From Mycobacterium colombiense (GTDB lineage Bacteria > Actinomycetota > Actinomycetes > Mycobacteriales > Mycobacteriaceae): a DNA stretch of 64,000 bases. The stretch is taken from assembly GCF_003284975.1 (NCBI RefSeq), contig NZ_QMEU01000002.1, positions 1 through 64,000 of the forward strand, read 5' to 3'. Position 1 is the stretch's first letter. The number at the start of each line of letters is the position of its first letter. A program made the translations under genes and the position numbers. The notes beneath the pieces are model-generated. The model had not been told where the DNA came from. It ran no database searches and worked only from the letters and a program-made list of their open reading frames with translations. Positions 10,853 to 54,241 of the stretch are shown one piece after another.

Positions 10853-10867
10853 GATAATTTCATTCTC
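10853..10867. promoter_or_regulatory. Recurrent operator, copy 1 (one mismatch)
   Basis: GATAAT-TTC-ATTCTC differs from the consensus GAGAAT-N3-ATTCTC at one base. It sits 29 bp upstream of the ALDH start, in the divergent gap between ALDH and the SDR. A weaker core, GAAT-GAG-ATTC, lies at 10918-10928 in the same gap. Confidence 0.6.
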
Positions 10868-11066
10868 TTCCCCGGCGAATCTTACATTCGAGTTTTGATA
10901 ATTCAAGAAAGTCTCAGGAATGAGATTCGGGGTGCTGACCAGGGCCGCAACCGGCCGTACACTGCCGGCCAGGGCCTTTCCCGCAGGCTGGACGCGGTGT
11001 TAGGCGCATGTTGCACGGCGATCCGCGCGGAGAGTAAGGTTCTCATAATTGTAAGGGAGATTCTTT

Positions 11067-11108
11067 GTGACTGAAATGGCCCCCTCCGGAGCAGAGGCCT
11101 CTACATGA
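11067..11108 (+). CDS. Possible 13-codon leader peptide before the SDR
   Basis: GTG at 11067 opens a 13-codon frame whose TGA stop overlaps the SDR start codon (ATGA at 11105-11108). A purine-rich ribosome site (AAGGGAG) precedes the GTG, whereas no clear ribosome site precedes the SDR ATG itself. The arrangement would let ribosomes reinitiate on the SDR. The peptide has no recognisable regulatory codon run, so coupling rather than attenuation is the simplest reading. Confidence 0.4.
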   Translation: MTEMAPSGAEAST

Positions 11109-11806
11109 AGACTGCGGTAGTCACCGGCGGCGGATCCGGCATCGGTCTCGCCGTCGCGCAACGCCTGCGGGCCGACGGTTTGAACGTCGCCTCCATCGAC
11201 CTGCGACCGTCGGAAGCCGATTTCGCCTTCACCGCCGACGTCACCGATCGGTCGCAAGTGGACGCCGCGCTGTCGGCCGTCCGCGCGCAACTCGGGCCGG
11301 TGACGGTTCTGGTCAACGCCGCCGGCCTCGACGGGTTCAAGAAGTTCAACAACATCACCTTCGAGGACTGGCAGCGGGTGATCGACGTCAACCTCAACGG
11401 CGTCTTTCACACCGTCCAGGCGGTGCTCCCCGACATGGTCGAGGCGGGATGGGGACGCATCGTCAACATCTCGTCGTCGAGCACGCATTCCGGTGCGCCC
11501 TACATGAGTCATTACGTCGCGGCCAAGTCGGCGGTCAACGGCCTGACGAAGTCGCTCGCACTCGAGTACGGGCCCAAGGGCATCACGGTCAACGCGGTGC
11601 CGCCGGGCTTCATCGACACCCCGATGCTGCGCGCCGCCGAGAAGAACGGATTCCTCGGCGACATCGACGAGACCATCGCGCGGACGCCGGTGCGTCGGAT
11701 GGGCACGCCGCAGGACATCGCGGCGGCGTGCGCGTTCCTGGTGTCCGAGGAGGCCGGCTACATCACCGGTCAGATCTTGGGCGTCAACGGCGGCCGCAAC
11801 ACCTGA
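11105..11806 (+). CDS. Short-chain dehydrogenase/reductase
   Basis: Classical SDR of 233 residues that oxidises or reduces an alcohol/ketone with NAD(P). The cofactor motif TGGGSGIG is at 7-14, NAAG at 71-74, and the catalytic set Ser124, Tyr137 and Lys141 is present in SSSSTHSGAPYMSHYVAAK. The C-terminal half carries an ordinary substrate loop (PPGFIDTPM). It heads an SDR-ferredoxin-P450 cluster, so it may act on the alcohol the P450 makes. It is divergent from the ALDH. Translation may depend on the short upstream ORF. Confidence 0.92.
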   Translation: MKTAVVTGGGSGIGLAVAQRLRADGLNVASIDLRPSEADFAFTADVTDRSQVDAALSAVRAQLGPVTVLVNAAGLDGFKKFNNITFEDWQRVIDVNLNGVFHTVQAVLPDMVEAGWGRIVNISSSSTHSGAPYMSHYVAAKSAVNGLTKSLALEYGPKGITVNAVPPGFIDTPMLRAAEKNGFLGDIDETIARTPVRRMGTPQDIAAACAFLVSEEAGYITGQILGVNGGRNT

Positions 11807-11859
11807 GCGGTGGCGATCCGTCGGCCGCGCCCGGTAACCAGTGTGAGAGGAGACAACCC

Positions 11860-12060
11860 GTGAAGGTCTGGGTGGATTCGCAGCGGTGTCAGGGCCACAC
11901 CCTGTGCGCCATGATCGCTCCGGAATCGTTTCAGCTCAGCGACATCGACGGCAGTTCGTCGGCGGTCGACGAGGTGGTGCCCGCCGACCGCGAGGACCAG
12001 GTCCGTGAGGCCGCGCAGTCCTGTCCGGAGCAGGCCATCATGATCACCGACGACGCCTGA
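11860..12060 (+). CDS. Small ferredoxin with His in the cluster motif
   Basis: Ferredoxin of 66 residues that would pass electrons to the adjacent P450. The motif is C10-x-x-H13-x-x-C16 with a later CP, so His13 stands where a fourth Cys would be in a 4Fe-4S protein; this pattern is known from mycobacterial P450 partners, mostly 3Fe-4S. GTG at 11860 follows GAGAGGAGA. It sits 53 bp after the SDR and 48 bp before the P450, probably in the same transcript. Confidence 0.92.
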   Translation: MKVWVDSQRCQGHTLCAMIAPESFQLSDIDGSSSAVDEVVPADREDQVREAAQSCPEQAIMITDDA

Positions 12061-12108
12061 GCCGCTATCCGTTCCGTAGCTACGGCAAACACATAGGGAG
12101 ACAGAGCA

Positions 12109-17166: not shown

Positions 17167-18342
17167 CTAGCCGCGCGGCAGGCCGAGTACCCGCTGGGCG
17201 ATGATGTTGCGCTGGATCTCCGACGTGCCGCCGGCGATGGTCCCGGAGAAGCTGCGGGCGTAGCGCTCGAACCAGCTGGCGAAGTAGTGGTCCAGATTCA
17301 TGTGCGCGTACGGGCCCGTCAGGCCCGGATGCACCAGTCCATCGGATCCCGCGGACGTCAGCGCCAGTTCCATGCCACGCAACTCGGCCTCGGAGCCTAG
17401 GAGCTTGAGCACCGAGATTGCGGCCACATCATCTTCGCCACGCGCGGCGCGCGCCAGGGCCGCCGAACCCAACAGCCGCAGGGCCTGCTTGTCCATGATG
17501 GTGCTGGCGTATTGGTCACGCTCGACGTCGGTGCTCGGATGGAAGTCGTCGATCATGTTCTCCAGGCGATCGGCGAAACCCAGCCACATCATGGTGCGTT
17601 CATGCCCCAGCGAGCCGTTGGCCACCCGCCACCCCTGGTCGAGCTCGCCGACCAGGTTCTCGGCCGGCACCCGAACGTCGGTGAAGAACACCTCGTTGAA
17701 ATCCAGATCGTCGGCACCGCAGATCGACGGGAACGGCCGACGGACTAGGCCCGGGGTAGCGGTGGGGATGATGAGCGCGCTGATTCCCTTGTGCTTCGGC
17801 ACATCCGGGTTGGTCCGCACGAACGTCAGCAGGACGTCGGCGTCGTGGGCGCCCGAGGTCCACACCTTCTGCCCATTGACCACGAAGTGGTCTCCGTCGC
17901 GCACCGCGCGAGTGCGCAGCGACGCCAGGTCGGAGCCCGCGCTCGGTTCGCTCATGCCGAGCGACGCGGTGATCTCGGCCCGCAGAATCGGCACCGCCCA
18001 ACGCCGCTTCTGCTCGTCGCTGCCGAACGACAACAGCGATGCCCCAACGATATTCACGCCCTGCGGGTTGAAGCTGTGGTAGATCCGCCGGCGGCTCAGT
18101 TCCTCGAGATAGACGAACTGCTGAATGACCGTGGCGTTGCGCCCGCCGAATTCCGGCGGCTGGCTGGGCAGCAGCCAGCCGTTGTCGAACAACAGCCGCT
18201 GCCAGTCGCGGGCCCACTGCGGCATGTGTGAGACCGACCGGGGACGTTCGAGCGTTTCGCTTGCGGGAGGCAGGTTTTCGTCGAGGAACGCCGAGAACTC
18301 CGTCCGGAACTCCTCGACGTCGGAATCAAAAGTCAGCTGCAC
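17167..18342 (-). CDS. Acyl-CoA dehydrogenase, probable catalytic subunit
   Basis: FadE-type flavoprotein of 391 residues that would insert an alpha,beta double bond into an acyl-CoA. FAD/substrate motifs are GMSEPSAGSDLA and WTSGA. The usual Glu before GTS is replaced (AGGTSEIQRN), but Glu248 in GSLGHERT matches the alternative catalytic position used in isovaleryl-CoA dehydrogenase-like enzymes. GTG at 18342 follows GGAGG and overlaps the upstream partner by 17 bp. Close in sequence to the copies at 27570-28745 and 52082-53269. Confidence 0.93.
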   Translation of the reverse strand: MQLTFDSDVEEFRTEFSAFLDENLPPASETLERPRSVSHMPQWARDWQRLLFDNGWLLPSQPPEFGGRNATVIQQFVYLEELSRRRIYHSFNPQGVNIVGASLLSFGSDEQKRRWAVPILRAEITASLGMSEPSAGSDLASLRTRAVRDGDHFVVNGQKVWTSGAHDADVLLTFVRTNPDVPKHKGISALIIPTATPGLVRRPFPSICGADDLDFNEVFFTDVRVPAENLVGELDQGWRVANGSLGHERTMMWLGFADRLENMIDDFHPSTDVERDQYASTIMDKQALRLLGSAALARAARGEDDVAAISVLKLLGSEAELRGMELALTSAGSDGLVHPGLTGPYAHMNLDHYFASWFERYARSFSGTIAGGTSEIQRNIIAQRVLGLPRG

Positions 18343-19324
18343 GGTATTCCTCCGCGATCCGCGCCCGGTGCTCCGCCGCGCCGCCGAGCATCAACTCGCC
18401 CGCCTTGGCTCGTTTCAGCGCGAACTGCAGGTCGTTCTCCCACGTGAATCCCATTGCGCCGTGCAGCTGTAGGCCGTGCCGGAATACCAGCGACTGGCAT
18501 TCGCCGGCCGACGCCTTGGCCATCGCGGCCGCCAGCCGGCGGCGCGGATCGTCGGCCGCGATCGTCAACGCGGCGAAGTAGGCCAGCGCGCGCGCCCGTT
18601 GCACGGCGACGTGCATGTCGGCGGCCTTGTGCTGCACGGCCTGGAACGAGCCGATCGCCACGCCGAACTGCTGGCGGCTACTCACGTGCTCGAGGACCAG
18701 GTCGAGGATGCGTTGGCAGGCGCCAACCATCGTGATCGCCATGCCGGTCAAAGCGAAATGGTGAGCGCGTTCCGCGTCGACGGTCAGCCGGTCACTGTCG
18801 GGCACCCGCACCTCGGCGAATGACAGGTCGGCGACGTGCAGTACCGGATCGAACACCGCCGCGCGCCGGGCCGACACCTGACCGGACGCGACCAGGAACA
18901 CCCCGGCGTCGGTCACCACCGCCAACCGATCCGCCCGATCTCCGTCGAGCACGTGCCGCGCGGTGCCTTCCAGGACCCAACCCTCGGCGTCGCGGTGCGC
19001 GGCAACCCCGCTGTAGACCGCGGTGCCCGACTGGTGAGGGTCGAAGCGGTCTGCGGCCAGCGGCGCGAACTGGCTCATCGTCGCCAGGTACGGGGTGGGG
19101 TCGGTGGCGTGGCCGAGCTGCTCGAGCACGATGGCCAACTCGACGGCGCTGTCCGCATCGCTGAGCTCGGTCCAGCCCTGGTCTACATACGATTTCCACA
19201 ACGGGCTCGGGTCGACGCCCTCTTCGGCCACGCTGCGCACCAACGACGGCGGGCACTGCTTCGCGACGGCGTCGCGCACCGTGTCCTGCCACAGTCGCTG
19301 GTCAGCATCGAACTCCAACAGCAT
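18326..19324 (-). CDS. Acyl-CoA dehydrogenase-like partner subunit
   Basis: Shorter FadE-like protein of 332 residues. FAD-contact motif RQQFGVAIGSFQAVQH and GAMGFTWENDLQ near the C-terminus identify the family, but no candidate catalytic Glu is visible at either known site. In mycobacterial steroid degradation such degenerate partners form alpha2beta2 enzymes with an adjacent catalytic FadE; the 17-bp overlap with the downstream gene fits this. A perfect recurrent operator lies 30 bp before its ATG, so the pair is a regulated unit. Confidence 0.9.
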   Translation of the reverse strand: MLLEFDADQRLWQDTVRDAVAKQCPPSLVRSVAEEGVDPSPLWKSYVDQGWTELSDADSAVELAIVLEQLGHATDPTPYLATMSQFAPLAADRFDPHQSGTAVYSGVAAHRDAEGWVLEGTARHVLDGDRADRLAVVTDAGVFLVASGQVSARRAAVFDPVLHVADLSFAEVRVPDSDRLTVDAERAHHFALTGMAITMVGACQRILDLVLEHVSSRQQFGVAIGSFQAVQHKAADMHVAVQRARALAYFAALTIAADDPRRRLAAAMAKASAGECQSLVFRHGLQLHGAMGFTWENDLQFALKRAKAGELMLGGAAEHRARIAEEYRAADF

Positions 19325-19353: not shown

Positions 19354-19370
19354 CGAGAATACCATTCTCG
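19354..19370. promoter_or_regulatory. Recurrent operator, copy 2 (perfect)
   Basis: CGAGAAT-ACC-ATTCTCG, a perfect 7+3+7 palindrome containing the consensus GAGAAT-N3-ATTCTC. The 15-bp core ends 30 bp before the start of the acyl-CoA dehydrogenase pair, a position where a bound repressor would block transcription. Confidence 0.75.
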
Positions 19371-19447
19371 GTTGCGGAAGTAATAATCTCTGAATCCGGG
19401 CATGGGGTCACCGCAAGGCTGCTGACAAGCGGACTCCGTCGGGCGAC

Positions 19448-21699: not shown

Positions 21700-21714
21700 G
21701 AGAATGATATTATC
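21700..21714. promoter_or_regulatory. Recurrent operator, copy 3 (one mismatch)
   Basis: GAGAAT-GAT-ATTATC matches the consensus except for one base in the right arm. It is in the 247-bp gap between the HIBADH-like gene and the amidohydrolase operon, 175 bp before the amidohydrolase start. Confidence 0.55.
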
Positions 21715-21889
21715 CGGAATGAAGAACCATACTTGCTCCAACGACCGCGAAACGCCCGCCACCAGCGACGATGATTAAACGAAATGCTTACCGGAAACCC
21801 GTTGATGGATCACCGACGAAAATGTTAGATTGGCTATCATCTGACCTCGCGCGGACGGCGTTTGCCGCCGCAGCCGAAGGGTGGCTTTC

Positions 21890-22981
21890 GTGATCACACA
21901 CGCCGACGGAACCAGCACCCCGTTGATCGACGCGAGCGTGCACATCTTCTTTCCGTCGAACAAGGCCCTGCGCAAGACCCTGCGCGAGCCGTTCAAGAGC
22001 CGCGGCTTTCCGGACTACGAGATGGACTGGTACGGCGCCCCCGGCGGTGAGTACGCGCCCAACACCGAGGGCCCGGACCGCCAGTACCCGGGTTCGGATC
22101 CGGATTTCGTTGCCAATGAACTGTTTTCGAAGCGCGGCGTCGATGTGGCGCTTCTGCATCCGATGGCGCGCGGCATCATGCCGGACCGGCACCTGGGCAG
22201 CGCCCTGCACGCCGCGCACAACGAGATGATGGTGTCGAACTGGCTAGAGTCCGGCCAGTTCGGCGAGCGGTTCCGCGGCACCATCCGGGTCAACCCCGAC
22301 GACATCCCCGGCGCGCTGCGCGAGATCGAGCGGTGGCGTGCGCACCCGCGGGTGGTCCAGATCGGCGTCCCGCTGCAATCCCGCGAGTTGTACGGCAAAC
22401 CGCAGTTCTGGCCGATCTGGGAGGCTGCCGTCGACGCCGGATTGCCCGTCGCCGCGCACATCGAGGTCGGGTCGGGCATCGCGTTCCCGCCGACGCCGAA
22501 CGGCAACACCCGCACCTACGAGCAGTACGTCAGCTTCATGGCGCTGAACTACCTGTATCACCTGATGAACATGATCGCCGAGGGTGTGTTCGAGCGGTTC
22601 GATGGCCTCAAGTTCGTCTGGGGCGACGGCGCCGCCGACTTCATCACGCCGTTCATCTGGCGGATGGACACCTTCGGCCGTCCGCACCTGGAGCAGACGC
22701 CGTGGGCACCGCGGATTCCCAGCGACTACCTGCCCGGTCACGTGTTCTTCGTTCAGGGCAGCCTCGACGGACCCGGCGACGTCGAGTTCGCCGGCGAATG
22801 GTTCGGCTTCACCGGCAAAGACGACATGGTGATGTTCGGGTCGAGCTATCCACACTGGCAATGCGGCGATGTCAGCAAACTGCCCAGCGCGTTGTCCGCC
22901 GAGCAGCGCGAGAAGCTGTGCTGGCGCAACGCGGCGCGGCTCTACGGCATAGACATTCCCGCCGGGGTGGGCGCACAGTAG
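21890..22981 (+). CDS. Amidohydrolase-family protein (COG2159 type), copy A
   Basis: TIM-barrel metal-dependent hydrolase/decarboxylase relative of 363 residues. The N-terminal metal region keeps one His (DASVHIFF). The C-terminal motif normally written SSDYPHW reads FGSSYPHWQ, so the usual Asp is Ser, which may reduce or change activity. GTG at 21890 is preferred over 21881 because GAAGGGTGG lies just before it. It heads a unit with a second amidohydrolase, a Rieske protein and a hydrolase. The family includes carboxy-lyases acting on ring-cleavage products. Substrate unknown. Confidence 0.85.
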   Translation: MITHADGTSTPLIDASVHIFFPSNKALRKTLREPFKSRGFPDYEMDWYGAPGGEYAPNTEGPDRQYPGSDPDFVANELFSKRGVDVALLHPMARGIMPDRHLGSALHAAHNEMMVSNWLESGQFGERFRGTIRVNPDDIPGALREIERWRAHPRVVQIGVPLQSRELYGKPQFWPIWEAAVDAGLPVAAHIEVGSGIAFPPTPNGNTRTYEQYVSFMALNYLYHLMNMIAEGVFERFDGLKFVWGDGAADFITPFIWRMDTFGRPHLEQTPWAPRIPSDYLPGHVFFVQGSLDGPGDVEFAGEWFGFTGKDDMVMFGSSYPHWQCGDVSKLPSALSAEQREKLCWRNAARLYGIDIPAGVGAQ

Positions 22982-39687: not shown

Positions 39688-40203
39688 CTAGCTGGCGGGA
39701 ACCAGGTCGGCGGCCACCGAGGGCCACGCCAGCAGCCCGCTGCGGAACGTCTCGACGTGGCCGACGGGGGCGTGCGGTACGGCCGCGGCCGCGAGGGCCT
39801 GGGCCTTGAACGTCTGCGCCGCCATGCTCAGCTGGTGTTGCACCAGGCCGACGCTGTCATCGAGTTCCGACGGCCAGTCCTCCCCCCACAGCGTGACCTC
39901 CATGGCGCCCTGATCGAGGGCCCGCAGCACGCCTTGGCGAACCCGCGCGTCGCAACCGAACAGGTCCGCCGCGGCCGCCAGGGCCTGGGGGCGGGGCCGC
40001 GATTGCACCGATGCCAGCGCCTCTTCGAGGTCGAGCACCTGAGCGCCGATGATCTGCAGCGGCCGATCATCGGGGTGGTCGGCCAGATCCATCAAGAGCA
40101 CGGTGACGTCCCAACCCGCCATCGACCGGTCGAAGATCCAGCCACCGGCGAACCGCACCACATCGACCGCGGTGGTGGCAACGACGTCGAGCCGGTACCT
40201 CAT
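39688..40203 (-). CDS. Uncharacterised protein coupled to TetR
   Basis: Product of 171 residues. An N-terminal segment (VVRFAGGWIFDRSMAGWDVTVLLMDLADHPDDRPLQI) reads as alternating strands, and the middle is helical and Ala-rich (LASVQSRPRPQALAAAADLF). No signal peptide or known motif is seen. ATG 40203 overlaps the TetR stop by 4 bp (ATGA), so it is co-expressed with the regulator and may modulate it. I do not recognise the family. Confidence 0.65.
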   Translation of the reverse strand: MRYRLDVVATTAVDVVRFAGGWIFDRSMAGWDVTVLLMDLADHPDDRPLQIIGAQVLDLEEALASVQSRPRPQALAAAADLFGCDARVRQGVLRALDQGAMEVTLWGEDWPSELDDSVGLVQHQLSMAAQTFKAQALAAAAVPHAPVGHVETFRSGLLAWPSVAADLVPAS

Positions 40204-44231: not shown

Positions 44232-45530
44232 TCAGTCCTTGTTGCCGGTAAGGGCTTTCGCGTTGGCCGCGAAGTCCGCGAAGGACGAGCCGCCCCGACT
44301 GTCCTTGTCGTGGCCCTTGGCCTTGATGGACACATCGTGCCCCTCGGCGGCCTTGCGCAGCGCACCGACGGTCGCCTGTTCGCGCGAAATGTGCGTGAAC
44401 GGGTCGAACGAGTACCAGCGCATGGCGTTCTCGTGGGTCATCCTGTTGATCTCGTCATCGGGAACGTTATTGAGGGACAACACATCCCACAGCTCTTCGG
44501 GCGCACCCGGCCACATCGAGTCGCTGTGCGGGTAGTCGGCTTCCCAGCAAATGTTGTCGATGCCGATCATGTTGCGCAGCGCCACGCCGACCTTGTCGCT
44601 GATGAAGCAGGTCAAGAAGTGGTCGCGGAAAACCTCGCTGGGCAGCTTGCCCTTGAAATCCTGGTGCGTCCAGGCGGAGTGCATCTCGAAGGTGCGGTCC
44701 GCGCGCTCGAGGAAGTAGGGAATCCAGCCGGTTCCGCCCTCCGACAGCGCGATCTTGAGGTCGGGGTATTCCTTTATCGGCTTGGACCACAACAGATCGG
44801 CGGCGGCCTGCACGATGTTCATCGGCTGCAGCGTGATCATCACGTCCATGGGGGCGTCGGGCGCGGTGATGGCCAACCGCCCCGAGGAACCGATGTGCAC
44901 GTTCATCACGGTGCCGGTGTCGCACAGCGCCTTCCACAGCGGGGCCCAGTAGTCGTCGTGGAAGCTGGGGTAGCCCATCGCGGCCGGGTTCTCGGTGAAG
45001 GTCAAGGCGTGCACGCCCTTTTTGGCGACCCGTCGCACTTCGGCCGCGCACGCCTCGGCATCCCAGATCACCGGGATCGCCATCGGGATGAATCGCGCCG
45101 GGTAGGCGCCGCACCACTCTTCGATGTGCCAGTCGTTGTAGGCCTGCACCAGTGCGATCGAGAAGTCGTTGTCGTCGGTGGCGAACAGCCGTCCGGCGAA
45201 ACCGGGGAAGGACGGGAAGCAGATCGACGCCAGGATGCCGCCGGCGTTCATGTCCTTGACGCGCTCGTCGACGTTGTAACAACCGGGCCGGATCTCGTCG
45301 AGCCCCGTCGGCTCGATGCCGTACTCCTCCTTCGGCCGCCCGGCCACCGCGTTGAGCGCGACGTTGGGGATGACGGTGTCGCGGAACTTCCACATGTCCG
45401 ATCCGTCGGCGTTGTGCACGAGCCGGGGCGCATCGTCCTGATACTTCTTCGGCAGGTGGTTCTTGAACATGTCCGGCGGCTCGACGGTGTGGTCGTCGAC
45501 GCTGATCAAAATCATGTCTTCTTTGTTCAT
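44232..45530 (-). CDS. Amidohydrolase-family protein (COG2159 type), copy C
   Basis: TIM-barrel hydrolase of 432 residues. The metal motif VDDHTVEPPD at the N-terminus, HIGSSG in the middle and EADYPHSD near the C-terminus are intact, so it should be active. A 60-residue charged tail rich in Lys, Asp and Gly extends past the barrel. ATG 45530 (MNKED) follows AAAGGGACGG. It lies upstream of the beta-oxidation cassette on the same strand, separated by a hairpin, and divergent from the Rieske operon. Confidence 0.9.
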   Translation of the reverse strand: MNKEDMILISVDDHTVEPPDMFKNHLPKKYQDDAPRLVHNADGSDMWKFRDTVIPNVALNAVAGRPKEEYGIEPTGLDEIRPGCYNVDERVKDMNAGGILASICFPSFPGFAGRLFATDDNDFSIALVQAYNDWHIEEWCGAYPARFIPMAIPVIWDAEACAAEVRRVAKKGVHALTFTENPAAMGYPSFHDDYWAPLWKALCDTGTVMNVHIGSSGRLAITAPDAPMDVMITLQPMNIVQAAADLLWSKPIKEYPDLKIALSEGGTGWIPYFLERADRTFEMHSAWTHQDFKGKLPSEVFRDHFLTCFISDKVGVALRNMIGIDNICWEADYPHSDSMWPGAPEELWDVLSLNNVPDDEINRMTHENAMRWYSFDPFTHISREQATVGALRKAAEGHDVSIKAKGHDKDSRGGSSFADFAANAKALTGNKD

Positions 45531-45617
45531 GGCCGTCCCTTTCATCGGATCCACCGGATCGATTAGAGCCTCGGCGAATCGCTGTCCCGTGCCAAGATCA
45601 CTAAACTGAAAACTATC

Positions 45618-45634
45618 TTCTCGCCAGGCGAGAA
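45618..45634. promoter_or_regulatory. Perfect inverted repeat TTCTCGCC-A-GGCGAGAA
   Basis: Two 8-base arms surround one base. It shares the GAGAA/TTCTC half-site of the recurrent operator but with the arms pointing the other way and a GC centre. It lies 87 bp before the amidohydrolase C start. It could be a second operator type or a hairpin in the leader. Confidence 0.45.
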
Positions 45635-45894
45635 TCAACATCCAGCGGTTGCTAGGCGTTGCCGCAACCTTCTGACCAGCAGCCGAACGTGCAGGTCTAG
45701 CGCCCTTCCACGGCGCAGCCATGCCGTGAGGTAGAACCCGGGTTGGCGCGGCGGGACCGAGGCGCTTGCCACCCTGTCGGCCCGGGTCGACGGCCCAGCC
45801 GCGGCCTGCGCCGAGTCGATGGGCGGACCTGTCCCCGAGCGGCACGCCGGCATTGACCGGACGCGCGTTTCGTGCCAGTCTGTTAGTTGCAAAT

Positions 45895-45909
45895 GAGAAT
45901 ATGATTCTC
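45895..45909. promoter_or_regulatory. Recurrent operator, copy 6 (perfect)
   Basis: GAGAAT-ATG-ATTCTC, a perfect match. It ends 22 bp before the CMD start codon of the seven-gene Rieske operon, close enough to overlap the promoter or transcription start. Confidence 0.75.
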
Positions 45910-45931: not shown

Positions 45932-46465
45932 ATGCGCTTGCAGCCGCTGCCCGCCGACCAGTGGGACGAGGCGACCCGGCAGGCCCTCTCGGCGATGCGT
46001 GGGGCGGACAGCAACAACGCGCTGTCCACGCTGGCCCACCATCCGGCGCTGGCCAAGGCGTTTCTTCGGTTCAACGTTCACCTGCTGGTGTCATCCACAC
46101 TGCCGGCCCGCATCCGCGAACTGGCCATCCTGCGGGTGGCCCATCGCCGGCAGTGCGCCTACGAGTGGTCACACCACGAGCGGATGGCCAAAGAAGAAGG
46201 GATCACCGACGACCAGATCGCGGCCTTGCAGCGCGGCGAGGCCGCCGACGCGTTCGACCAGGTCGTGATCACTGGGGTCGACGAGCTCGATGAGAAGTCG
46301 GAGCTGTCGGACCAGACCTGGGCGGCACTGGGCGAGCGCCTCAACGACCAGCAACGGATGGACTTCGTCTTCACGGTCGGCTGCTACGCCCTGCTGGCCA
46401 TGGCCTTCAACACTTTTGGCATCCAACCCGAGCACGCCACCACAGCCGCTAACAACGTCGAATAA
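45932..46465 (+). CDS. Carboxymuconolactone decarboxylase/AhpD-like protein
   Basis: CMD-fold protein of 177 residues. ARIRELAILRVAHRRQCAYEWSHHERMAKEEG is the core helix of the family; one Cys and a nearby His pair replace the AhpD CxxC motif, so a simple thiol peroxidase role is unlikely. It is the first gene of a seven-gene operon, 22 bp after a perfect recurrent operator, and 14 bp before the Rieske oxygenase gene. A lactone or beta-keto acid decarboxylase role is possible. Confidence 0.88.
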   Translation: MRLQPLPADQWDEATRQALSAMRGADSNNALSTLAHHPALAKAFLRFNVHLLVSSTLPARIRELAILRVAHRRQCAYEWSHHERMAKEEGITDDQIAALQRGEAADAFDQVVITGVDELDEKSELSDQTWAALGERLNDQQRMDFVFTVGCYALLAMAFNTFGIQPEHATTAANNVE

Positions 46466-46479
46466 GAGGAGTAAGAACG

Positions 46480-47757
46480 TTGCCGCACTTCCCGAAGCCG
46501 GCCGCCGGCAGCTGGACAGAGAACTACCCCGAGTTGGGGACCTCGCCGGTCGACTACACCGACTCGATCGACCCCGCGTTCTTCGAGGCCGAGCGCGACG
46601 CCGTGTTCAGGAAGACCTGGCTCAACGTCGGCCGCGTCGAGCGCCTGCCCCGCACCGGCAGCTACTTCACCAGGGAACTGCCCTCGGCCGGCAAGGGCAC
46701 GTCGGTGATCATCACCAAGACCAAGGACGGATCCGTCAAGGCCTACCACAACGTCTGCCGCCACCGCGGAAACAAGTTGGTGTGGAACGACTTTCCCAAC
46801 GAGGAGACCTCCGGCACCTGCCGGCAGTTCACCTGCAAGTACCACGCCTGGCGCTACAGCCTCGACGGCGATCTGACCTTCGTTCAGCAGGAAGAAGAGT
46901 TCTTCGACCTCGACAAGAGCAACTTCGGGCTGGCGCCCGTTCGCTGCGAGGTGTGGGAAGGCTTCATCTTCATCAACTTCGACGACAACGCGGCGCCGCT
47001 CACCGACTACCTCGGGCCGCTGGCCAAGAGCATCGAGGGCTACCCGTTCGGCGAGATGACCGAGACCTACTCCTACCGGGCCGAGGTCGGCAGCAACTGG
47101 AAGCTGTTCATCGACGCGTTCGTCGAGTTCTACCACGCGCCGATCCTGCACCAGGGTCAGTACACCAAGGAAGAAGCCGCCAAGATCCAGAAGTTCGGCT
47201 ACGAGGCGCTGCACTACGAGTTGGCCGGCCCGCACAACCTGCAGTCGACCTGGGGTGGCCAGGCGCCGCCCCCGGACATGTCGATGGTCAAGCCGATGGA
47301 CCAGGTGTTGCGCAGCGGGCTGTTCGGTCCTTGGGACAAGCCGGAGATCATCCAGAACCTGGAGCTGCCGCCGGGCGTCAACGTGAAGCGGGTGCCGCAG
47401 TGGGGCATTGACTCGTGGCTGTTCTACCCCAACTTCATGCTGCTGATCTGGGAGCCGGGCTGGTATTTGACCTACCACTACTGGCCGACCGCGGTGGACA
47501 AGCACATCTTCGAGTCGTCGCTGTATTTCGTGCCGCCGCGCAATGCGCGGGAACGCCTGGCCCAGGAGTTGGCCGCGGTGACGTTCAAGGAGTATGCGCT
47601 GCAGGACGCCAACACCCTGGAAGCGACCCAGACCATGATCGGCACCCGAGCCGTCAAGGAGTTCCTGCTCTGCGACCAGGAAGTCTTGATCCGACACCTG
47701 CACCACACGACCGCCAACTACGTCAAGGAGTACCAGCGCAATGGCGCTACCGTCTGA
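46480..47757 (+). CDS. Rieske non-heme iron oxygenase, large (alpha) subunit
   Basis: Ring-hydroxylating-oxygenase-type protein of 425 residues. The Rieske centre is Cys93-x-His95 and Cys119-x-x-His122 (NVCRHRG, CKYHAW). The catalytic iron ligands are His219 and His224 in EFYHAPILH. No beta-subunit or dedicated reductase gene is next to it. TTG 46480 follows AGAGGAGTAAG. It probably hydroxylates a ring or alkyl position; the ferredoxins, the Rieske protein at 24158 or the NuoF-like protein could supply electrons. Confidence 0.93.
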   Translation: MPHFPKPAAGSWTENYPELGTSPVDYTDSIDPAFFEAERDAVFRKTWLNVGRVERLPRTGSYFTRELPSAGKGTSVIITKTKDGSVKAYHNVCRHRGNKLVWNDFPNEETSGTCRQFTCKYHAWRYSLDGDLTFVQQEEEFFDLDKSNFGLAPVRCEVWEGFIFINFDDNAAPLTDYLGPLAKSIEGYPFGEMTETYSYRAEVGSNWKLFIDAFVEFYHAPILHQGQYTKEEAAKIQKFGYEALHYELAGPHNLQSTWGGQAPPPDMSMVKPMDQVLRSGLFGPWDKPEIIQNLELPPGVNVKRVPQWGIDSWLFYPNFMLLIWEPGWYLTYHYWPTAVDKHIFESSLYFVPPRNARERLAQELAAVTFKEYALQDANTLEATQTMIGTRAVKEFLLCDQEVLIRHLHHTTANYVKEYQRNGATV

Positions 47758-48064
47758 ATTCGCCGCCCTCGAGCCCTTTTTGGAGTGGGACCTGGCCACC
47801 GAGCCCGAGCGCTACGCCAAGCGGTTGGCCTCGACGATGGCGGAAATGCAGGCGTTCTATGACGTCGCATTTCCCAAGCTGAACGACGTCATCGCATACT
47901 GCGACAAGTTCCCCTTGGACGACCTGCCGGACGACGCAAGGACGTTGATGCACATGATGCAGTCGCTCGTCATGGTGTCGTTCCCCATCGAGGCGTGGAA
48001 GCAGCCGCGCGTGCCGGACAGCGGCGCGGCATGGGTTGCAGTGATCCGGGAACCGGTGATCTAG
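47741..48064 (+). CDS. Uncharacterised helical protein coupled to the Rieske oxygenase
   Basis: Product of 107 residues that overlaps the oxygenase gene by 17 bp. It reads as mostly amphipathic helices (ATEPERYAKRLASTMAEMQAFYDVAFPKLNDVIAYCDKF), with no membrane segment or metal motif. The tight coupling and small size suggest an accessory or small subunit of the oxygenase, but it shows no likeness that I can see to the usual beta subunit (SnoaL-like fold). The SnoaL-like protein lies two genes further on. Confidence 0.75.
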   Translation: MALPSEFAALEPFLEWDLATEPERYAKRLASTMAEMQAFYDVAFPKLNDVIAYCDKFPLDDLPDDARTLMHMMQSLVMVSFPIEAWKQPRVPDSGAAWVAVIREPVI

Positions 48065-48067
48065 CCG

Positions 48068-49288
48068 GTGCTGACGCTCAAGGCCGCGGGGCTGCTCGAC
48101 GTTGACGGCGGCGAGATCATCCGGCCCGGCATCCTGAAGATCCAGGACGACCGGATCGTCGGCGTGGGGGGCGACCCCGAAGGCGAAATCATCGCGCTTG
48201 GCGACCAAGTTCTGTTGCCGGGCCTGATGGACATGGAGGTCAACCTCCTGATGGGCGGGCGCGGCGAGACGCCCGGGCTGTCCCAGGTTCAGGACGACCC
48301 GCCCACACGGGTGCTGCGCGCGGTCGGCAACGCCCGGCGCACGCTGCGCGCCGGTTTCACCACCGTTCGCAACCTCGGATTGTTCGTCAAGACCGGCGGC
48401 TACCTGCTCGACGTCGCCCTGGCCAAGGCCATCGACGCGGGCTGGATCGACGGGCCCCGAATAGTCCCGGCCGGCCACGCGATCACGCCCACCGGCGGGC
48501 ACCTTGACCCGACGATGTTCGCCGCATTCATGCCGGGCGCACTCGAGCTCACGATCGAAGAGGGCATCGCCAACGGCGTCGACGAGATCCGCAAGGCGGT
48601 GCGCTACCAGATCAAGCACGGCGCCGAATTGATCAAGGTGTGCGTTTCCGGCGGTGTCATGTCATTGACCGGTGAGGCCGGGGCGCAACACTATTCGGAC
48701 GAGGAACTGCGCGCGATCGTCGACGAGGCGCACCGCCGTGGACTGCGTGTCGCCGCCCACACGCACGGAGCGGAGGCGGTCAAGCACGCGGTCGCGTGCG
48801 GTATCGACTGCATCGAGCACGGGTTCCTGATGGACGACGAGGCCATCCAGATGCTGGTCGACAACGACAGGTTCCTGGTGACCACCCGCAGGCTCGCCCA
48901 GGCCATGGACGTGTCGCGCGCCCCGAAAGCCTTGCAGGACAAGGCGGCCGAGATGTTCCCCAAGGCCGAGACCTCGATCAAGGCGGCCTACGAGGCCGGG
49001 GTGAAAATCGCGGTCGGCACCGACGCCCCGGCCATCCCGCACGGCAAGAACGCCGACGAGCTCGTCACGCTGGTGGAATGGGGCATGCCGCCGCTGGCGG
49101 TGCTGCGGGCCGCCACCATCACCGCGGCCGAGCTCATCAACAAAACCGACCGGGGGCGCCTCGCGACGGGCCAGCTCGCGGATATCATCGCGGTACCGGG
49201 AAACCCGTTGGAAGACATCACGGTTACCCAGCGCGTCAGCTTCGTCATGAAAGGCGGCAAGGTCTATGTCGACACCCGATCAGCCTAA
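48068..49288 (+). CDS. Amidohydrolase with degenerate metal site (imidazolonepropionase-like)
   Basis: Amidohydrolase-superfamily protein of 406 residues. The fold markers LLPGLMDM, Lys190 in LIKVCVSGG, His231 in AAHTHG, His251 in IEHG and Asp319 in VGTDAP are present. However, the first metal motif His-x-His reads Glu57-Val-Asn59 (DMEVNL), so two metal ligands are missing. It may bind one metal, use a different chemistry, or be inactive. GTG 48068 starts 3 bp after the preceding stop. The gene overlaps the SnoaL-like gene by 23 bp. Confidence 0.88.
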   Translation: MLTLKAAGLLDVDGGEIIRPGILKIQDDRIVGVGGDPEGEIIALGDQVLLPGLMDMEVNLLMGGRGETPGLSQVQDDPPTRVLRAVGNARRTLRAGFTTVRNLGLFVKTGGYLLDVALAKAIDAGWIDGPRIVPAGHAITPTGGHLDPTMFAAFMPGALELTIEEGIANGVDEIRKAVRYQIKHGAELIKVCVSGGVMSLTGEAGAQHYSDEELRAIVDEAHRRGLRVAAHTHGAEAVKHAVACGIDCIEHGFLMDDEAIQMLVDNDRFLVTTRRLAQAMDVSRAPKALQDKAAEMFPKAETSIKAAYEAGVKIAVGTDAPAIPHGKNADELVTLVEWGMPPLAVLRAATITAAELINKTDRGRLATGQLADIIAVPGNPLEDITVTQRVSFVMKGGKVYVDTRSA

Positions 49289-49736
49289 AAGCGGCCCAAC
49301 CCGAACTGATGACCTGGTCGAGATCCAGCAGCTGCTTGGCCGCTACGCGGTCACCATCACCCAGCAGGACATCGAGGGTCTGGTCGCCGTCTTCACTGCC
49401 GACGGCACCTACAGCGCCTTCGGCGAGACCTACAGCCTGAGCCGATTCCCGGAATTGGTGGCCGCAGCCCCAAAGGGCTTGTTCCTCACCGGAACCGCGG
49501 TGGTCGACCTCGATGGGGATGCGGCCACCGGCACCCAACCGCTGTGCTTCATCGACCATGCCACTCACGACATGCGGATCGGTTACTACCGCGACACCTA
49601 TCTGCGTACCGCTGACGGGTGGCGACTGAAGACCCGCGCCATGACCTTCATCCGCCGCAGCGGGGTGCACGACTCCGGGCGCCCGCACGCCATCGGCCGT
49701 CCCGCCGGTGACTCCGCGGCCCAGGCAGCGACTTAA
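49266..49736 (+). CDS. SnoaL-like (NTF2-fold) protein
   Basis: Product of 156 residues. DLVEIQQLLGRYAVTITQQDIEGLVAVFTADGTYSAFGE is the typical start of SnoaL-like polyketide-cyclase/steroid-isomerase folds, and the strands GYYRDTYLRTADGWRLKTRAMTFIRR close the cone. Members are isomerases, hydratases, cyclases or oxygenase beta subunits. Its overlap with the amidohydrolase gene and place in the Rieske operon make an isomerase/hydratase or oxygenase-subunit role plausible. Confidence 0.87.
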   Translation: MSTPDQPKSGPTRTDDLVEIQQLLGRYAVTITQQDIEGLVAVFTADGTYSAFGETYSLSRFPELVAAAPKGLFLTGTAVVDLDGDAATGTQPLCFIDHATHDMRIGYYRDTYLRTADGWRLKTRAMTFIRRSGVHDSGRPHAIGRPAGDSAAQAAT

Positions 49737-49753
49737 GGAGCCGACCCATTGAA

Positions 49754-50851
49754 GTGAATGTCGAGCAGTTCCGGGCCGACCTGCGCGCGTGGCTCGACGA
49801 CAACGATCTGACCCCCGAGCGCGACCACTCGCTGCAGGGGCACATGCGGCAGTTCGCCCGGGTCAGCCGCGCACTCTACGACGCCGATTGGATGCGGTTC
49901 GGCTGGCCGGTCGAGGTCGGCGGGCTCGGCGGCCCGGCAGTGCTGCGCGCGATCGTCGGCGAAGAGGTGGTGGGCCGGCGCCTGGCCGAGCCCGGCCCCT
50001 ATTCGATGCTCGAGGTCCTCGCACCCACGATGATCGATTACGCGCCCGTGGAGCTCGCCAAGGAAATGGTGCCGCGGCTGCTCAGCGGGGAAGAGCAATG
50101 GTGCCAAGGCTTTTCCGAGCCGGGGTCGGGCAGTGACCTGGCGTCGCTGACCACCCGCGCGACGCAGCAAGGTGATAACTGGATCGTCAACGGACAAAAG
50201 GTCTGGACCAGCTTCGCGCAGTTCTCCACCCGGTGCGTCCTGCTCACCCGCACCGCGCCCGGCCACGACGGGATCACCGCGTTCTTCGTCGACCTCGACA
50301 CCCCGGGCATCACCATCCGCCCGCTGCGCACGATGCACGGCGTCGACGAATTCTGCGAGGTGTACTACGACGACGTGGTGATCCCGGCCAGCAGGATGCT
50401 GGGCAAGCCCGGGGACGGCTGGCGACTGGCAATGGACCTGCTGCCCTACGAACGCTCCGCTTGCTTCTGGCAGCGAATCGCCTACCTCTATTCACGTTTC
50501 GACGATCTGATCACCGCGGCGTCAGAAAACGGGGAACCCGACGAATCCGCGCTCGGCGGAGCCTATCTGGCTCTTCATACGTTGCGCTGCCGATCGCGTG
50601 CCACCCAGCATCGTATGCGGGACGGGGCAAGGCTGGGGCCGGACACCTCCATCGACAAGGTGCTGCTGGCCTCCGCGGAGCAGCGACTCTACGACACCGT
50701 CCGCGACGTGTTGCCGGGAACGCTCGAGCTCGAAGACACCCCGTGGCGTTCGGAATATCTGTATTCACGCGCTGCGACGATCTACGGCGGCACCGCCGAG
50801 ATCCAGCGCAATATCATCGCCCGCCGGCTACTCGACCTCGGGAAGGAGTGA
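49754..50851 (+). CDS. Acyl-CoA dehydrogenase, probable catalytic subunit
   Basis: FadE-type protein of 365 residues. GFSEPGSGSDLASL, QKVWTSFAQ, and IYGGTAEIQRNIIARRLLDL mark the family. Glu in LLPYERSACF matches the alternative catalytic position; the C-terminal Glu is Gly. GTG 49754 is the first good start; an in-frame ATT at 49748 sits at better distance from AAGGAG, so the true start is uncertain by two codons. It precedes a degenerate partner by 2 bp, as in heterotetrameric steroid-type enzymes. Confidence 0.92.
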   Translation: MNVEQFRADLRAWLDDNDLTPERDHSLQGHMRQFARVSRALYDADWMRFGWPVEVGGLGGPAVLRAIVGEEVVGRRLAEPGPYSMLEVLAPTMIDYAPVELAKEMVPRLLSGEEQWCQGFSEPGSGSDLASLTTRATQQGDNWIVNGQKVWTSFAQFSTRCVLLTRTAPGHDGITAFFVDLDTPGITIRPLRTMHGVDEFCEVYYDDVVIPASRMLGKPGDGWRLAMDLLPYERSACFWQRIAYLYSRFDDLITAASENGEPDESALGGAYLALHTLRCRSRATQHRMRDGARLGPDTSIDKVLLASAEQRLYDTVRDVLPGTLELEDTPWRSEYLYSRAATIYGGTAEIQRNIIARRLLDLGKE

Positions 50852-50853
50852 CC

Positions 50854-51684
50854 GTGACCCCTCCGACGGACATCGAGTCCGATCCCGAATCTCTGCGCCT
50901 GCTTGCGGAGTCGTTGCGGACGACGATGACGGCCGCCTCGGGAGCCAAGCTCGACGCGGCGCTGACCGAGCTCGGCTGGCGCGACATGCTCGATGAAATG
51001 CCCGACATCGCAATACCTCTGGTGTTCAAGCTGCTCGGTGAGACCGGCGCGCACGCACCCGTGCTCAACGACGTGGTGCTGCGCGCGGCGGGTGACGCGC
51101 CCGGGGGGACCCTGCCGCTGCCGTTTGCCGGTGGCTCCTGGGTGTTGTGGGAGCGCCGTGACCATGCCGAGTCGGCGATCGATGAGCTGTTGCCGATACA
51201 CCGCGTGCCCCAAGATGATTCGTTGCCACCCGCCGTGCTGCACGCGGGTTGGCGGGCTCTGGGGTGGTGGCTGGTCGGCACCAGCCGCGCCATGCTGTCT
51301 TTGGCTCGTCAGCACGCCGTCGACCGGGTCCAGTTCGGTCGGCACATCAGTTCGTTCCAGGCGATCCGGCATCGACTGGCCGAGGCGCTGGTCGCGATCG
51401 AGGGTGCCGAAGCGACACTGCAGGCCGCCACGGACTGCGACGACCCGCAGGGGCTCGCTTCGCTGCTGGCCAAGGCCGCGGCCGGCCAGGCGGCGCTGAC
51501 CACCGCGCGCCACTGTCAGCAGGTGCTCGGCGGCATCGGCTTCACCGCCGAACACCCCCTGCACCACCACATCAAGCGGTCGTTGATCCTCGACGGGCTG
51601 CTGGGTAGTTCGAAAGAACTGATACGTCAGGCCGGAAAGGCGGTCCTGGCTGCCGGCTCGGCGCCCCGGCTCGCGCAGCTGTAA
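50854..51684 (+). CDS. Acyl-CoA dehydrogenase-like partner subunit
   Basis: Shorter FadE-like protein of 276 residues. RQHAVDRVQFGRHISSFQAIRHRLAEAL is the FAD-contact motif, and LGGIGFTAEHPLHHHIKRSL the late motif; no catalytic Glu is visible. Much of the N-terminal domain is short. GTG 50854 follows AAGGAG. It probably forms a mixed tetramer with the preceding gene product. It is the last gene of the operon that begins with the perfect operator at 45895. Confidence 0.88.
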   Translation: MTPPTDIESDPESLRLLAESLRTTMTAASGAKLDAALTELGWRDMLDEMPDIAIPLVFKLLGETGAHAPVLNDVVLRAAGDAPGGTLPLPFAGGSWVLWERRDHAESAIDELLPIHRVPQDDSLPPAVLHAGWRALGWWLVGTSRAMLSLARQHAVDRVQFGRHISSFQAIRHRLAEALVAIEGAEATLQAATDCDDPQGLASLLAKAAAGQAALTTARHCQQVLGGIGFTAEHPLHHHIKRSLILDGLLGSSKELIRQAGKAVLAAGSAPRLAQL

Positions 51685-52073: not shown

Positions 52074-52081
52074 CGCACAGA

Positions 52082-53269
52082 TCAATTGCGCGGTAACCCG
52101 AGCACGCGTTCGGCGATGATGTTGCGCTGAATCTCCGACGTGCCACCGGCGATGGTCGCGGCGAAGGTGCGCGCGTACCGGTCGAACCAGCTGCCGTAGT
52201 GGCTGTCCAGGTTGAGCGGGGCGAACGGGGCGGTGACTCCGCGCAAGGCCAGTCCCTCGCCGTCCTTGGCGGCCAGCGCGTCCTCGCAGGCGCGTTGCAT
52301 CGCCTCCGAGCCGAGCAACTTGAGCACCGACTGGGCGGGCACGTCCTCTTCGCCGCGCGCGGCTTTGGCCAGGGTCGCCGACCCCAGTAGCCGCATCGCG
52401 TAGAAATCCATTACCAGCGTCGCGTAGCGGTCCCGCTGCACCGGCCCCGAGGGGCTCGACTCGACGGTCATCGCGTGCAGCATGTCCGCGTAATCCAGCC
52501 ACAGCATGGCGCGTTCGTGGCCGAGCGAACCGGTCGCGACGCGCCAGCCGCCGTTGAGCTCCCCCACCAGGTTCTCGGCCGGCACCCGGGCGTCGGTGAA
52601 GAAGACCTCGTTGAAGTCGACGTCTTCGATGTCACCCATCGAGGCGAACGGGCGCCGAACCACACCGGGAGTGTCGGTGGGGATCAGTAAAGCGCTGATC
52701 CCCTTGTGCTTTGGCGCGTCCGGATCGGTGCGCACGAATGTCAGCAACACATCGGCGTGGTGGGCGCCCGACGTCCACACCTTCTGCCCGTTGACGATGA
52801 AGCAGTCGCCTTGCGAATCGGAGTGGCGCACTGCGCGCGTCTTCAGCGACGCGAGATCCGATCCCGCGCCGGGCTCGCTCATCCCCAGCGACGCGGTGAT
52901 CTCCGCGCGCAGGATCGGCACCGCCCACCGTTGCTTCTGTTCGGGCGTGCCGAACGACAACAACGACGCCGCGATGATCCCGACACCTTGCGGATTGAAA
53001 CTCTGATAGATCCGCCGGCGCGACAACTCTTCGGAGTACACGTATTGCTGCAGCAGCGTCGCGTTACGTCCGCCGAACTCCGGCGGGTTGCCGGGTTGTA
53101 GCCAGCCGCTGTCGAACAGCAGGCGTTGCCAGCGGCGGGCCCAGTCCGGGATGTCCGAGCTCGACTGCGGCCGCACCAACGCCTCGGCCTCGGAAGGCAG
53201 ATGCGCGTCGAGGAAAGCCACGAACTCGGCTCGGAACGCCTCCACGTCGGCGTCAAAGGTCAGCTGCAC
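52082..53269 (-). CDS. Acyl-CoA dehydrogenase (paralogue of 17167 and 27570 genes)
   Basis: FadE-type protein of 395 residues with the same start (MQLTFDADVEAFRAEF), GMSEPGAGSDLA, WTSGAHHAD, GSLGHERAMLW and end (GGTSEIQRNIIAERVLGLPR) as its two paralogues. A short insert (HSDSQGD) lies at about 148-154. GTG 53269 follows GGGAAG. A perfect recurrent operator is 106 bp upstream, shared with the divergent TetR gene. It has no degenerate partner beside it. Confidence 0.93.
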   Translation of the reverse strand: MQLTFDADVEAFRAEFVAFLDAHLPSEAEALVRPQSSSDIPDWARRWQRLLFDSGWLQPGNPPEFGGRNATLLQQYVYSEELSRRRIYQSFNPQGVGIIAASLLSFGTPEQKQRWAVPILRAEITASLGMSEPGAGSDLASLKTRAVRHSDSQGDCFIVNGQKVWTSGAHHADVLLTFVRTDPDAPKHKGISALLIPTDTPGVVRRPFASMGDIEDVDFNEVFFTDARVPAENLVGELNGGWRVATGSLGHERAMLWLDYADMLHAMTVESSPSGPVQRDRYATLVMDFYAMRLLGSATLAKAARGEEDVPAQSVLKLLGSEAMQRACEDALAAKDGEGLALRGVTAPFAPLNLDSHYGSWFDRYARTFAATIAGGTSEIQRNIIAERVLGLPRN

Positions 53270-53375
53270 GGCACTTCCCGGGATGGTCCTTCAGTGTTCC
53301 CACGCGTCGGTAGATCAAGGTTTCCGTCGACGACGCGGTTCACTCTTGCGATTACGCTTCCATACACACGTCTAA

Positions 53376-53390
53376 GAGAATAGTATTCTC
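53376..53390. promoter_or_regulatory. Recurrent operator, copy 7 (perfect)
   Basis: GAGAAT-AGT-ATTCTC, a perfect match in the divergent gap between the acyl-CoA dehydrogenase at 52082-53269 and the TetR gene. A site between a regulator and a target gene is the classic place for that regulator's own operator. Confidence 0.75.
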
Positions 53391-53512
53391 ATGGTAAGAA
53401 AGTTACAATCTCCGACACGTGATCCGTGAGGGGGTCGAGCGCAGCGATGTCACGGCGTTCTCCGGTAGAGTCCAACCATGTTCTCCCCGCGCGGCAATCA
53501 CCTGAGTCGGCC

Positions 53513-54163
53513 GTGACCAATCCAAGCGAGGAGCCGGCCTGGAAGCAGCGAGCGGTCGAGCGGTCGATCAAGACGGCGAAATTGCGTGCGGCGCAGCGTG
53601 TTCAGCGCTTCCTCGACGCCGCCCAGGCCATCATCATCGAAAAGGGCAGCACGGACTTTACGGTGCAGGAGGTCGTGGACCGCTCCCGGCAGTCGTTGCG
53701 CAGCTTCTACCTGCAATTCGACGGCAAACACGAGCTGCTGCTGGCGCTCTTCGAGGATGCACTGAGCCGGTCGGCCGACCAGATCCGCGCGGCCACCGAG
53801 AACCAGGCCGATCCGCTGGAGCGGCTGCAGGTCGCCGTGCAGCTCCTGTACGAAGCGTCCCGCCCGGACCCGACGGCCAAGCGCCCGCTGTTCACGGACT
53901 TTGCTCCTCGACTGCTTGTCACCCACCCGGCCGAGGTCAAGATCGCCCATGCACCGCTGCTCGCGTTGCTGACCGAACTGATGGACGCGGCGCATGATGC
54001 CGGCAAGCTGCGCACCACCATCAACCCCAAACGAGTCGCCGCGATGACCATGCAGACGGTGATGTTCATCGCACAATCCAGCGGCGGGCCCGACGACGCG
54101 ACGACGCATCCCATCACCGCCGAAGAGGTATGGGATTTCTGCTCACGCGGTTTCGTCGCGTAG
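53513..54163 (+). CDS. TetR-family regulator
   Basis: Product of 216 residues from GTG 53513; in-frame starts at 53447 and 53426 would add 22-29 residues, so the start is uncertain. Helix-turn-helix at about 30-75 (RFLDAAQAIIIEKGSTDFTVQEVVDRSRQSLRSFYLQFDGKHELL), then a ligand domain. The gene lies next to a perfect GAGAAT-N3-ATTCTC palindrome and another lies directly downstream (54227), so it is the best candidate for the protein that reads this motif. Confidence 0.9.
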   Translation: MTNPSEEPAWKQRAVERSIKTAKLRAAQRVQRFLDAAQAIIIEKGSTDFTVQEVVDRSRQSLRSFYLQFDGKHELLLALFEDALSRSADQIRAATENQADPLERLQVAVQLLYEASRPDPTAKRPLFTDFAPRLLVTHPAEVKIAHAPLLALLTELMDAAHDAGKLRTTINPKRVAAMTMQTVMFIAQSSGGPDDATTHPITAEEVWDFCSRGFVA

Positions 54164-54226
54164 CACCCGAACGCCCCGCCTTCCCGCACCTCGCCAGTGA
54201 GCAAATAGCGCACGCCGTTTGCCGGT

Positions 54227-54241
54227 GAGAATGAGATTCTC
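54227..54241. promoter_or_regulatory. Recurrent operator, copy 8 (perfect)
   Basis: GAGAAT-GAG-ATTCTC, a perfect match between the TetR gene and the mycofactocin-type SDR, 155 bp before the SDR start. Confidence 0.75.

Follow-up and report, generated by a model that had tools for sequence, protein, structure and literature searches.

Introduction

The closest described system to the one reported here is the KstR regulon of lipid degradation. In the parts of PMC1995591 used for comparison, its repressor is an autoregulated TetR protein, a short palindrome lies before many catabolic genes, and the half-site contains AGAA, to which the half-site studied below is related. Conserved palindromes before mycobacterial TetR genes have been found by genome comparison, and for EthR, Mce3R and QacR an operator takes more than one dimer or consists of repeated sites, as far as the portion of PMC4482099 drawn on here goes. 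We analysed the first 64,000 nucleotides of contig NZ_QMEU01000002.1 of Mycobacterium colombiense (assembly GCF_003284975.1; this whole stretch is called the window below), in which a 15-bp palindrome, GAGAAT-N3-ATTCTC, recurs before catabolic genes and before the gene of a TetR-family regulator, P0001. This palindrome is likely the operator of P0001, which would keep its own gene and the catabolic operons repressed and come off when it binds an intermediate of the pathway. The KstR operator as given in PMC1995591 is TnnAACnnGTTnnA, 14 bp with an N2 spacer, whereas the sites analysed here have an N3 spacer and a second copy at 21-22 bp.

Results

The palindrome in the window and in its genome

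A first-pass annotation of the window had listed four perfect copies, at 19355, 45895, 53376 and 54227, and degenerate ones at 10853 and 21700 (one mismatch each) and at 31958 and 39550 (two mismatches each). Every one was found where it had been placed, and all are intergenic by mechanical gene calls; a "shorter core" listed at 10918-10928 gained no support and was rejected. The window has a G+C content of 66.3%, and its composition predicts 5×10−4 perfect copies, in agreement with the annotation's rough estimate of far fewer than one. Dinucleotide shuffling of the window, repeated 100 times, never produced a perfect palindrome. The whole genome (G000, 5.43 Mb, 216 contigs) contains 8 perfect copies, compared with 0.043 expected from composition and none for the reversed pattern used as a control over the same 5.43 Mb. 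Six of the 8 are on the 153-kb contig C139 (binomial 1.4×10−8), four of these in the window, and the remaining two are on contigs C144 and C194. Three further sites have a single mismatch (10853, 21700 and C161:67334). Calling the regulon local was thus too narrow, since C144, C194 and C161 each carry a site as well, perfect on the first two and near-perfect on the third. The annotation had also asked whether the motif is equally dense inside genes and in unrelated regions; when this was looked at, copies were found concentrated on one contig and placed before genes, an outcome that does not refute the proposal.

Up to two mismatches, the genome yields 65 matches, compared with 8 for the reversed control, and 54 of them, by subtraction, have exactly two. 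Such matches were therefore rejected as stand-alone sites. Six of them were seen in the window where 0.64 would be expected at the genome-wide density. As they cannot be judged singly, what speaks for the sites at 31958 and 39550 is where they lie and that each has a second copy. Two others, at 35419-35433 and 62663-62677, lie at or in genes and are probably due to chance.

The palindrome on C194 was flagged as intragenic. In three relatives the ATG comes 23-26 bp past the palindrome, and an intragenic site was rejected, the reading frame being probably over-long. Mechanical calls are often over-long at the 5′ end, as in the DitZ-like and enoyl-CoA hydratase (ECH) genes. The distance of 22-30 bp from site end to start codon proposed earlier holds for the four operons named (aldehyde dehydrogenase, 29 bp; acyl-CoA dehydrogenase pair, 30 bp; P450, 26 bp; CMD/Rieske, 22 bp), and not for tetR, the SDR gene and others, where it is longer.

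Conservation across the genus

Among 198 genomes of the genus, 1048 copies were counted in 163 genomes (median of 7 where present), compared with 3 copies of the reversed pattern in the same genomes. For the listing of site contexts, duplicate sites were collapsed to 286; the comparison with relatives of the C194 site left out any that came within 80-95 bp of where a locus ends. A sample of 66 sites from ten genomes (G086 left out; G156 contributing 4 of its 10 sites) was then compared with the proteins of selected stretches of the M. colombiense genome, not with its whole proteome. Within 320 bp downstream of 57 of these sites is a gene whose product is at least 40% identical to one of those proteins, and for 51 of the 66 the gene that follows is related to one flanking a site in M. 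colombiense, 3 of the 51 being at the gap between kinase and histidine-phosphatase genes of C194 (the count of 51, like those of 147/163 and 1/35 given below, was made by eye). Recurrent targets in the ten genomes are the C144 amidohydrolase (10/10), TetR and the acyl-CoA dehydrogenase pair (8 each), the AMP-dependent ligase of C139 (7), CMD and the amidohydrolase at 21881 (6 each). In those six genomes, relatives of this last gene are divergent from the dehydrogenase pair, with one site common to both. That the target genes are kept elsewhere supports the earlier suggestion that the motif ties scattered operons into one regulon.

A sequence found in similar form at many places might also be a dispersed repeat, or an RNA element, with no regulator attached. 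We give this explanation next to no credence: the flanks differ between sites and vary between species, the copies keep their places ahead of the same genes, and a search of the window against Rfam returned no match. A tRNA scan of the window also found nothing.

As a separate observation, two neighbouring genes of M. colombiense, for an alpha/beta hydrolase and for an IclR-type regulator, have no perfect site between them, and their relatives in one genome (G020:C1:5375108, locus L173) do.

The TetR-family regulator P0001 as candidate binder

The tetR locus of the window is organised as follows.

53376..53412, plus strand: tetR tandem operator, made of the perfect palindrome (53376-53390), a 7-bp gap and a second copy, GAAAGTTACAATCTC (53398-53412)
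53426..54163, plus strand: TetR-family regulator P0001, which co-occurs with the motif and has a near-invariant DNA-binding region
52082..53269, minus strand: acyl-CoA dehydrogenase, divergent from tetR

P0001 has the N-terminal TetR helix-turn-helix domain (PF00440, 31.1 bits for a cutoff of 24), and the nearest relative with a species name, 99% identical, is from Mycobacterium colombiense. The first-pass annotation had recognised this gene, with its start at 53513. The frame opens at 53426; many of the 120 relatives listed are 238-239 aa long, and Met8 does not vary among 26 aligned sequences, both of which favour ATG 53447 over 53513 as the likely start. An AlphaFold2 model, built from 26 similar sequences, shows an all-helical TetR fold with a mean pLDDT of 73; the matches listed by a Foldseek search with this model are TetR proteins, EthR2, FadR and QacR among them, with TMq between 0.47 and 0.61 over 50 listed matches.

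Of the 198 genomes searched in the genus, 163 have an ortholog of P0001 (E ≤ 1e-50), and it goes with the palindrome: 160 genomes have both, 3 the TetR only, 3 the motif only and 32 neither (Fisher 5×10−30). For 114 genomes of other genera of the family the corresponding numbers are 16, 1, 8 and 89 (Fisher 9×10−13); both Fisher values overstate independence, the genomes being related by descent. All 14 genomes outside the genus with at least 2 copies have P0001, and all 8 with the motif and no TetR are single-copy. At 79 of 80 named TetR loci, a perfect palindrome begins 42-70 bp ahead of the stretch that matches TetR; M. tilburgii (L132), with no site within 2 mismatches, is the one locus that differs. 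In 31 loci picked so that divergent and awkward genomes were represented, the site near TetR is perfect in 19, matches at 11/12 in 5, at 10/12 in 2, at 9/12 in 2 (at one of these, L266, the match is the DitZ-type tandem described below), and at 7 or fewer in 3. A perfect palindrome is also near the TetR gene in 14 of 17 loci of other genera, and the DNA-binding region of P0001 is nearly invariant across 7 genera. On the strength of the site at its own promoter and of this co-occurrence, we take P0001 as the likely binder; it appears to be the best candidate, as had been proposed in the first pass.

Some genomes show the pair of TetR and site in altered form. In G089 (3.2 Mb, L265) the TetR is kept, and its palindrome has decayed to 9/12 while the second copy still scores 8/12. 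In L281 (G093) and L279 (G056), one half of the sites has drifted to GAGAAC, closer to the KstR half-site, and the 51-residue DNA-binding stretch of the regulator has one or two substitutions only. G219:C6 and G289:C12 encode a second TetR, a paralog 59-60% identical to the first, and here too the match is preceded, at about 170 bp, by a palindrome.

The window encodes another TetR protein, P0002, which might be the actual binder, with P0001 as merely one of its targets.

40200..40835, minus strand: second TetR, P0002, on the same strand as the DitZ-like gene and downstream of it; a rival or sub-regulator

P0002 (E ≤ 1e-50) tracks the motif too, with 152 of the 198 genomes having both, none P0002 only, 11 the motif only and 35 neither, so that co-occurrence alone cannot name the binder. 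Moreover, the three genomes of the genus with TetR and without motif also lack P0002, and in G219 and G289, of another genus, the P0002 match has a palindrome about 183 bp ahead of it. Nine motif-bearing genomes, however, have P0001 without P0002, seven of them with 4-8 copies, and the reverse was seen in one, fragmented, genome. Among the 14 multi-copy genomes of the rest of the family, P0002 is present in 12; one that lacks it, G227, is a single contig with 6 copies. The conserved palindrome is at the promoter of P0001, and the gap between P0002 and its preceding gene in the window has no site at up to 3 mismatches. Co-occurrence would favour P0001 over P0002, which we regard as an unlikely binder.

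A probable tandem arrangement of the operator

The operator unit is probably a 37-bp tandem. A weaker second copy, absent from the first-pass annotation, is found on either side of the palindrome at a spacing of 21 or 22 bp. For the 11 sites of the M. colombiense genome with at most one mismatch, this copy has a mean of 7.36 matches out of 12 (at least 7 in 9 of the 11), compared with a mean of 4.18/12 at other offsets (standard deviation 0.34, 132 offset sets), and none of 5000 flank shuffles reached 7.36. In 231 kb of M. colombiense sequence, 13 pairs totalling at least 18/24 have a spacing of 21 or 22, in some cases with a site in common. Of 18 spacings compared, 22 comes first at all four totals considered, with 9 pairs versus 4 each at 19, 21 and 28 for totals of at least 18, and with a narrow lead, 17 versus 14 pairs, at total 16. 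The shuffles of this spacing scan also destroy palindromes, and the offset comparison is the cleaner control for spacing. At the tetR promoter, conservation is 0.95 in the palindrome, 0.52 in the gap, 0.85 in the second copy and 0.53-0.56 in the flanks (29 nonredundant sequences, one of which is probably not a tetR promoter). A second copy with at least 8 matches is present in 14 of 17 TetR promoters from other genera.

The tandem layout led to one more site, not in the first-pass annotation.

45608..45644, minus strand: imperfect tandem operator before the DitZ-like gene (9 + 8 of 12 matches)
44232..45530, minus strand: DitZ-like amidohydrolase, alignable with DitZ (PDB 8uyr) over about 405 residues, E 2.4e-109

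Homology to DitZ starts at residue 106 of the longer open reading frame 44232-45845, which places the start of the DitZ-like gene near 45530. A tandem pair totalling at least 15 is present in 67 of the 68 named loci that reach this far, and conservation is 0.97 in both copies, 0.72 in the gap and 0.5 in the flanks (43 nonredundant loci). With up to 3 mismatches, the DitZ-type tandem was found in 148 of the 198 genomes, and its control in none. It is present in 147 of the 163 P0001-positive genomes and in 1 of the 35 P0001-negative ones, this one being G147. On its gene strand (minus), the tandem reads TTGATT-N17-TAGTTT, one hexamer per copy, which is plausible as a −35/−10 pair. In G026 (C1:4739780-4739814) and G138 (C148:26513-26547) the DitZ-type tandem is about 0.1 and 0.8 kb from TetR rather than several kb, as if the intervening stretch had been lost. 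A similar imperfect pair (10 + 10 matches) at C144:11038-11074 (L014) is followed after about 30 bp by the likely start of an enoyl-CoA hydratase; it too was absent from the first-pass annotation.

The second copy could instead be a conserved promoter or ribosome-binding sequence that resembles the palindrome. In the tetR promoter it contains TACAAT, a −10-like word, and at C144:11589 it runs into purine-rich sequence directly ahead of the start codon, where its presence may be coincidental. The DitZ-like tandem overlies the −35/−10-like pair noted above. Yet in several operons the second copy is upstream of the palindrome, in other genera TACAAT is lost while the outer letters are kept (GA on one side and, in most, AGTCTC on the opposite one), and the preference for spacing 22 is against it as well. 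We consider this reading rather unlikely, while leaving it a real share of the probability, and keep the tandem as the probable operator.

Target operons and their possible function

The other operators and target genes of the window are the following; matches are given out of 12 for each copy.

9288..10823, minus strand: aldehyde dehydrogenase, closest to the Rv0768 type (TIGR04284, 661.6 bits, under the cutoff of 775)
10853..10889, minus strand: operator before the aldehyde dehydrogenase (11 + 8 matches)
11030..11065, plus strand: candidate operator before the SDR gene at 11105 (10 + 7 matches), a two-mismatch site absent from the first-pass annotation
17167..19324, minus strand: acyl-CoA dehydrogenase pair (genes 18326-19324 and 17167-18342)
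19355..19390, minus strand: tandem operator before this pair (12 + 8 matches, spacing 21)
21700..21736, plus strand: operator before the amidohydrolase at 21881 (11 + 7 matches)
21881..22981, plus strand: amidohydrolase-2 family protein
31958..31994, plus strand: weak operator before the thiolase-like protein (10 + 6 matches)
31977..33704, plus strand: lipid-transfer/thiolase protein with ChsH2-type domains (Pfam; 6ok1, "lipid-transfer protein", E 6e-52)
38249..39523, minus strand: cytochrome P450, closest to CYP150A6 (6dcd, E 4e-153)
39550..39585, minus strand: tandem operator before the P450, two imperfect copies (10 + 10 matches, spacing 21)
45895..45909: perfect palindrome, 22 bp before the CMD/Rieske operon
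45932..51684, plus strand: likely operon, with CMD (45932), Rieske oxygenase alpha (46480), a small open reading frame (47741), an amidohydrolase (48068), a SnoaL-like gene (49266) and acyl-CoA dehydrogenases (49754 and 50233)
54227..54263, plus strand: operator before the SDR gene, perfect palindrome and a poor second copy (5/12)
54301..55245, plus strand: mycofactocin-coupled SDR oxidoreductase (TIGR03971, 387.6 bits, cutoff 300)

The open reading frame 31977-33704 overlaps the weak operator, so that its true start is probably later. A FadD3-family ligase is also among the targets (749 bits, model cutoff 657).

DitZ takes part in the breakdown of diterpenoids; FadD3 and ChsH2 take part in that of steroids. 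The CYP150A6-like P450, the DitZ-like amidohydrolase, the acyl-CoA dehydrogenase pairs and the FadD3-family ligase, together with the ChsH2-type thiolase-like protein, the Rieske oxygenase and the mycofactocin-coupled SDR, suggest an oxidative, CoA-dependent breakdown of terpenoid or steroid-like rings. In the part of a review consulted (PMC6891630), two Mycobacterium strains are listed as resin-acid degraders, which makes diterpenoids worth testing and is no evidence for these genes.

A model for regulation

We propose that P0001 dimers would occupy both copies of the operator, side by side and perhaps cooperatively, since 22 bp is about two helical turns. Bound dimers would cover the core promoter, so that the target operons, and tetR as well, would be repressed, and binding of a pathway intermediate to P0001 would release it from DNA. 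Our tentative generalisation, which we put at somewhat below even chances, is that an undescribed regulon for the breakdown of cyclic terpenoids is common to mycobacteria and to several genera related to them, governed by one autoregulated TetR, and that a 37-bp tandem with one half on the −35 and the other on the −10 element lets two dimers close the core promoter.

Several observations weigh against regulation of these operons by P0001. By a crude gene caller, 16 of 74 sites fall in the 5′ end of an open reading frame and 4 inside one, the other 54 being intergenic. In the ten-genome sample, 9 of the 66 sites have no matched target, and 6 are before relatives of genes that carry no site in M. 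colombiense. Targets lost or kept together with their regulator would confound any test of co-occurrence. Loci L268, L283 and L284 carry TetR without a nearby site, and G056, G089 and G177 have TetR and no perfect palindrome, G056 and G177 showing an 11/12-match site beside it. Of the three motif-only genomes of the genus, two have one copy each, and the third, G147 (700 contigs), lacks a P0001 ortholog and has 8 palindromes as well as the DitZ-type tandem. Finally, 16 TetR-positive genomes have no DitZ-type tandem at up to 3 mismatches, and the poor second copy at 54227 fits the tandem badly.

If the assignment to P0001 is right, a catabolic regulon would be known by its regulator, its operator and its targets, as KstR made possible for lipid degradation, with regulator and sites together in 160 of the 198 genomes sampled in the genus. 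Further targets could then be searched for sharply with the tandem operator, and the regulator, used as a biosensor, would be a route to the substrate.

Comparison with known systems

A literature search found no description of this motif or regulon; its coverage was partial, so that an earlier publication is possible. One of the motifs of PMC4482099 could equal this palindrome if M. tuberculosis has an ortholog of P0001. Identity of P0001 with MftR, the mycofactocin regulator, was rejected (no TIGR03968 match at E ≤ 0.001), as was identity with KstR (NF033703, 20.6 bits for a cutoff of 280). The sites were likewise rejected as KstR operators, since the perfect ones read AAT-N3-ATT.

A KstR-type steroid regulator might nevertheless read them as variants of its motif. 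The half-site AGAA/TTCT is common to both, G093 has many sites with GAGAAC on one half, and P0001 gives a faint KstR match. The spacer is N3 and not N2, though, and the half-site AAT and not AAC, in keeping with the first-pass statement that the motif is not the KstR consensus, and presence of the motif follows P0001; a role of such a regulator is very unlikely. Compared with EthR, Mce3R and QacR as covered in the same portion of PMC4482099, the operator proposed here would consist of two imperfect palindromes of 15 bp each, their centres separated by 21-22 bp. The regulon of P0001 would therefore resemble that of KstR in the way it works, without being it, and the layout of its operator appears unusual.

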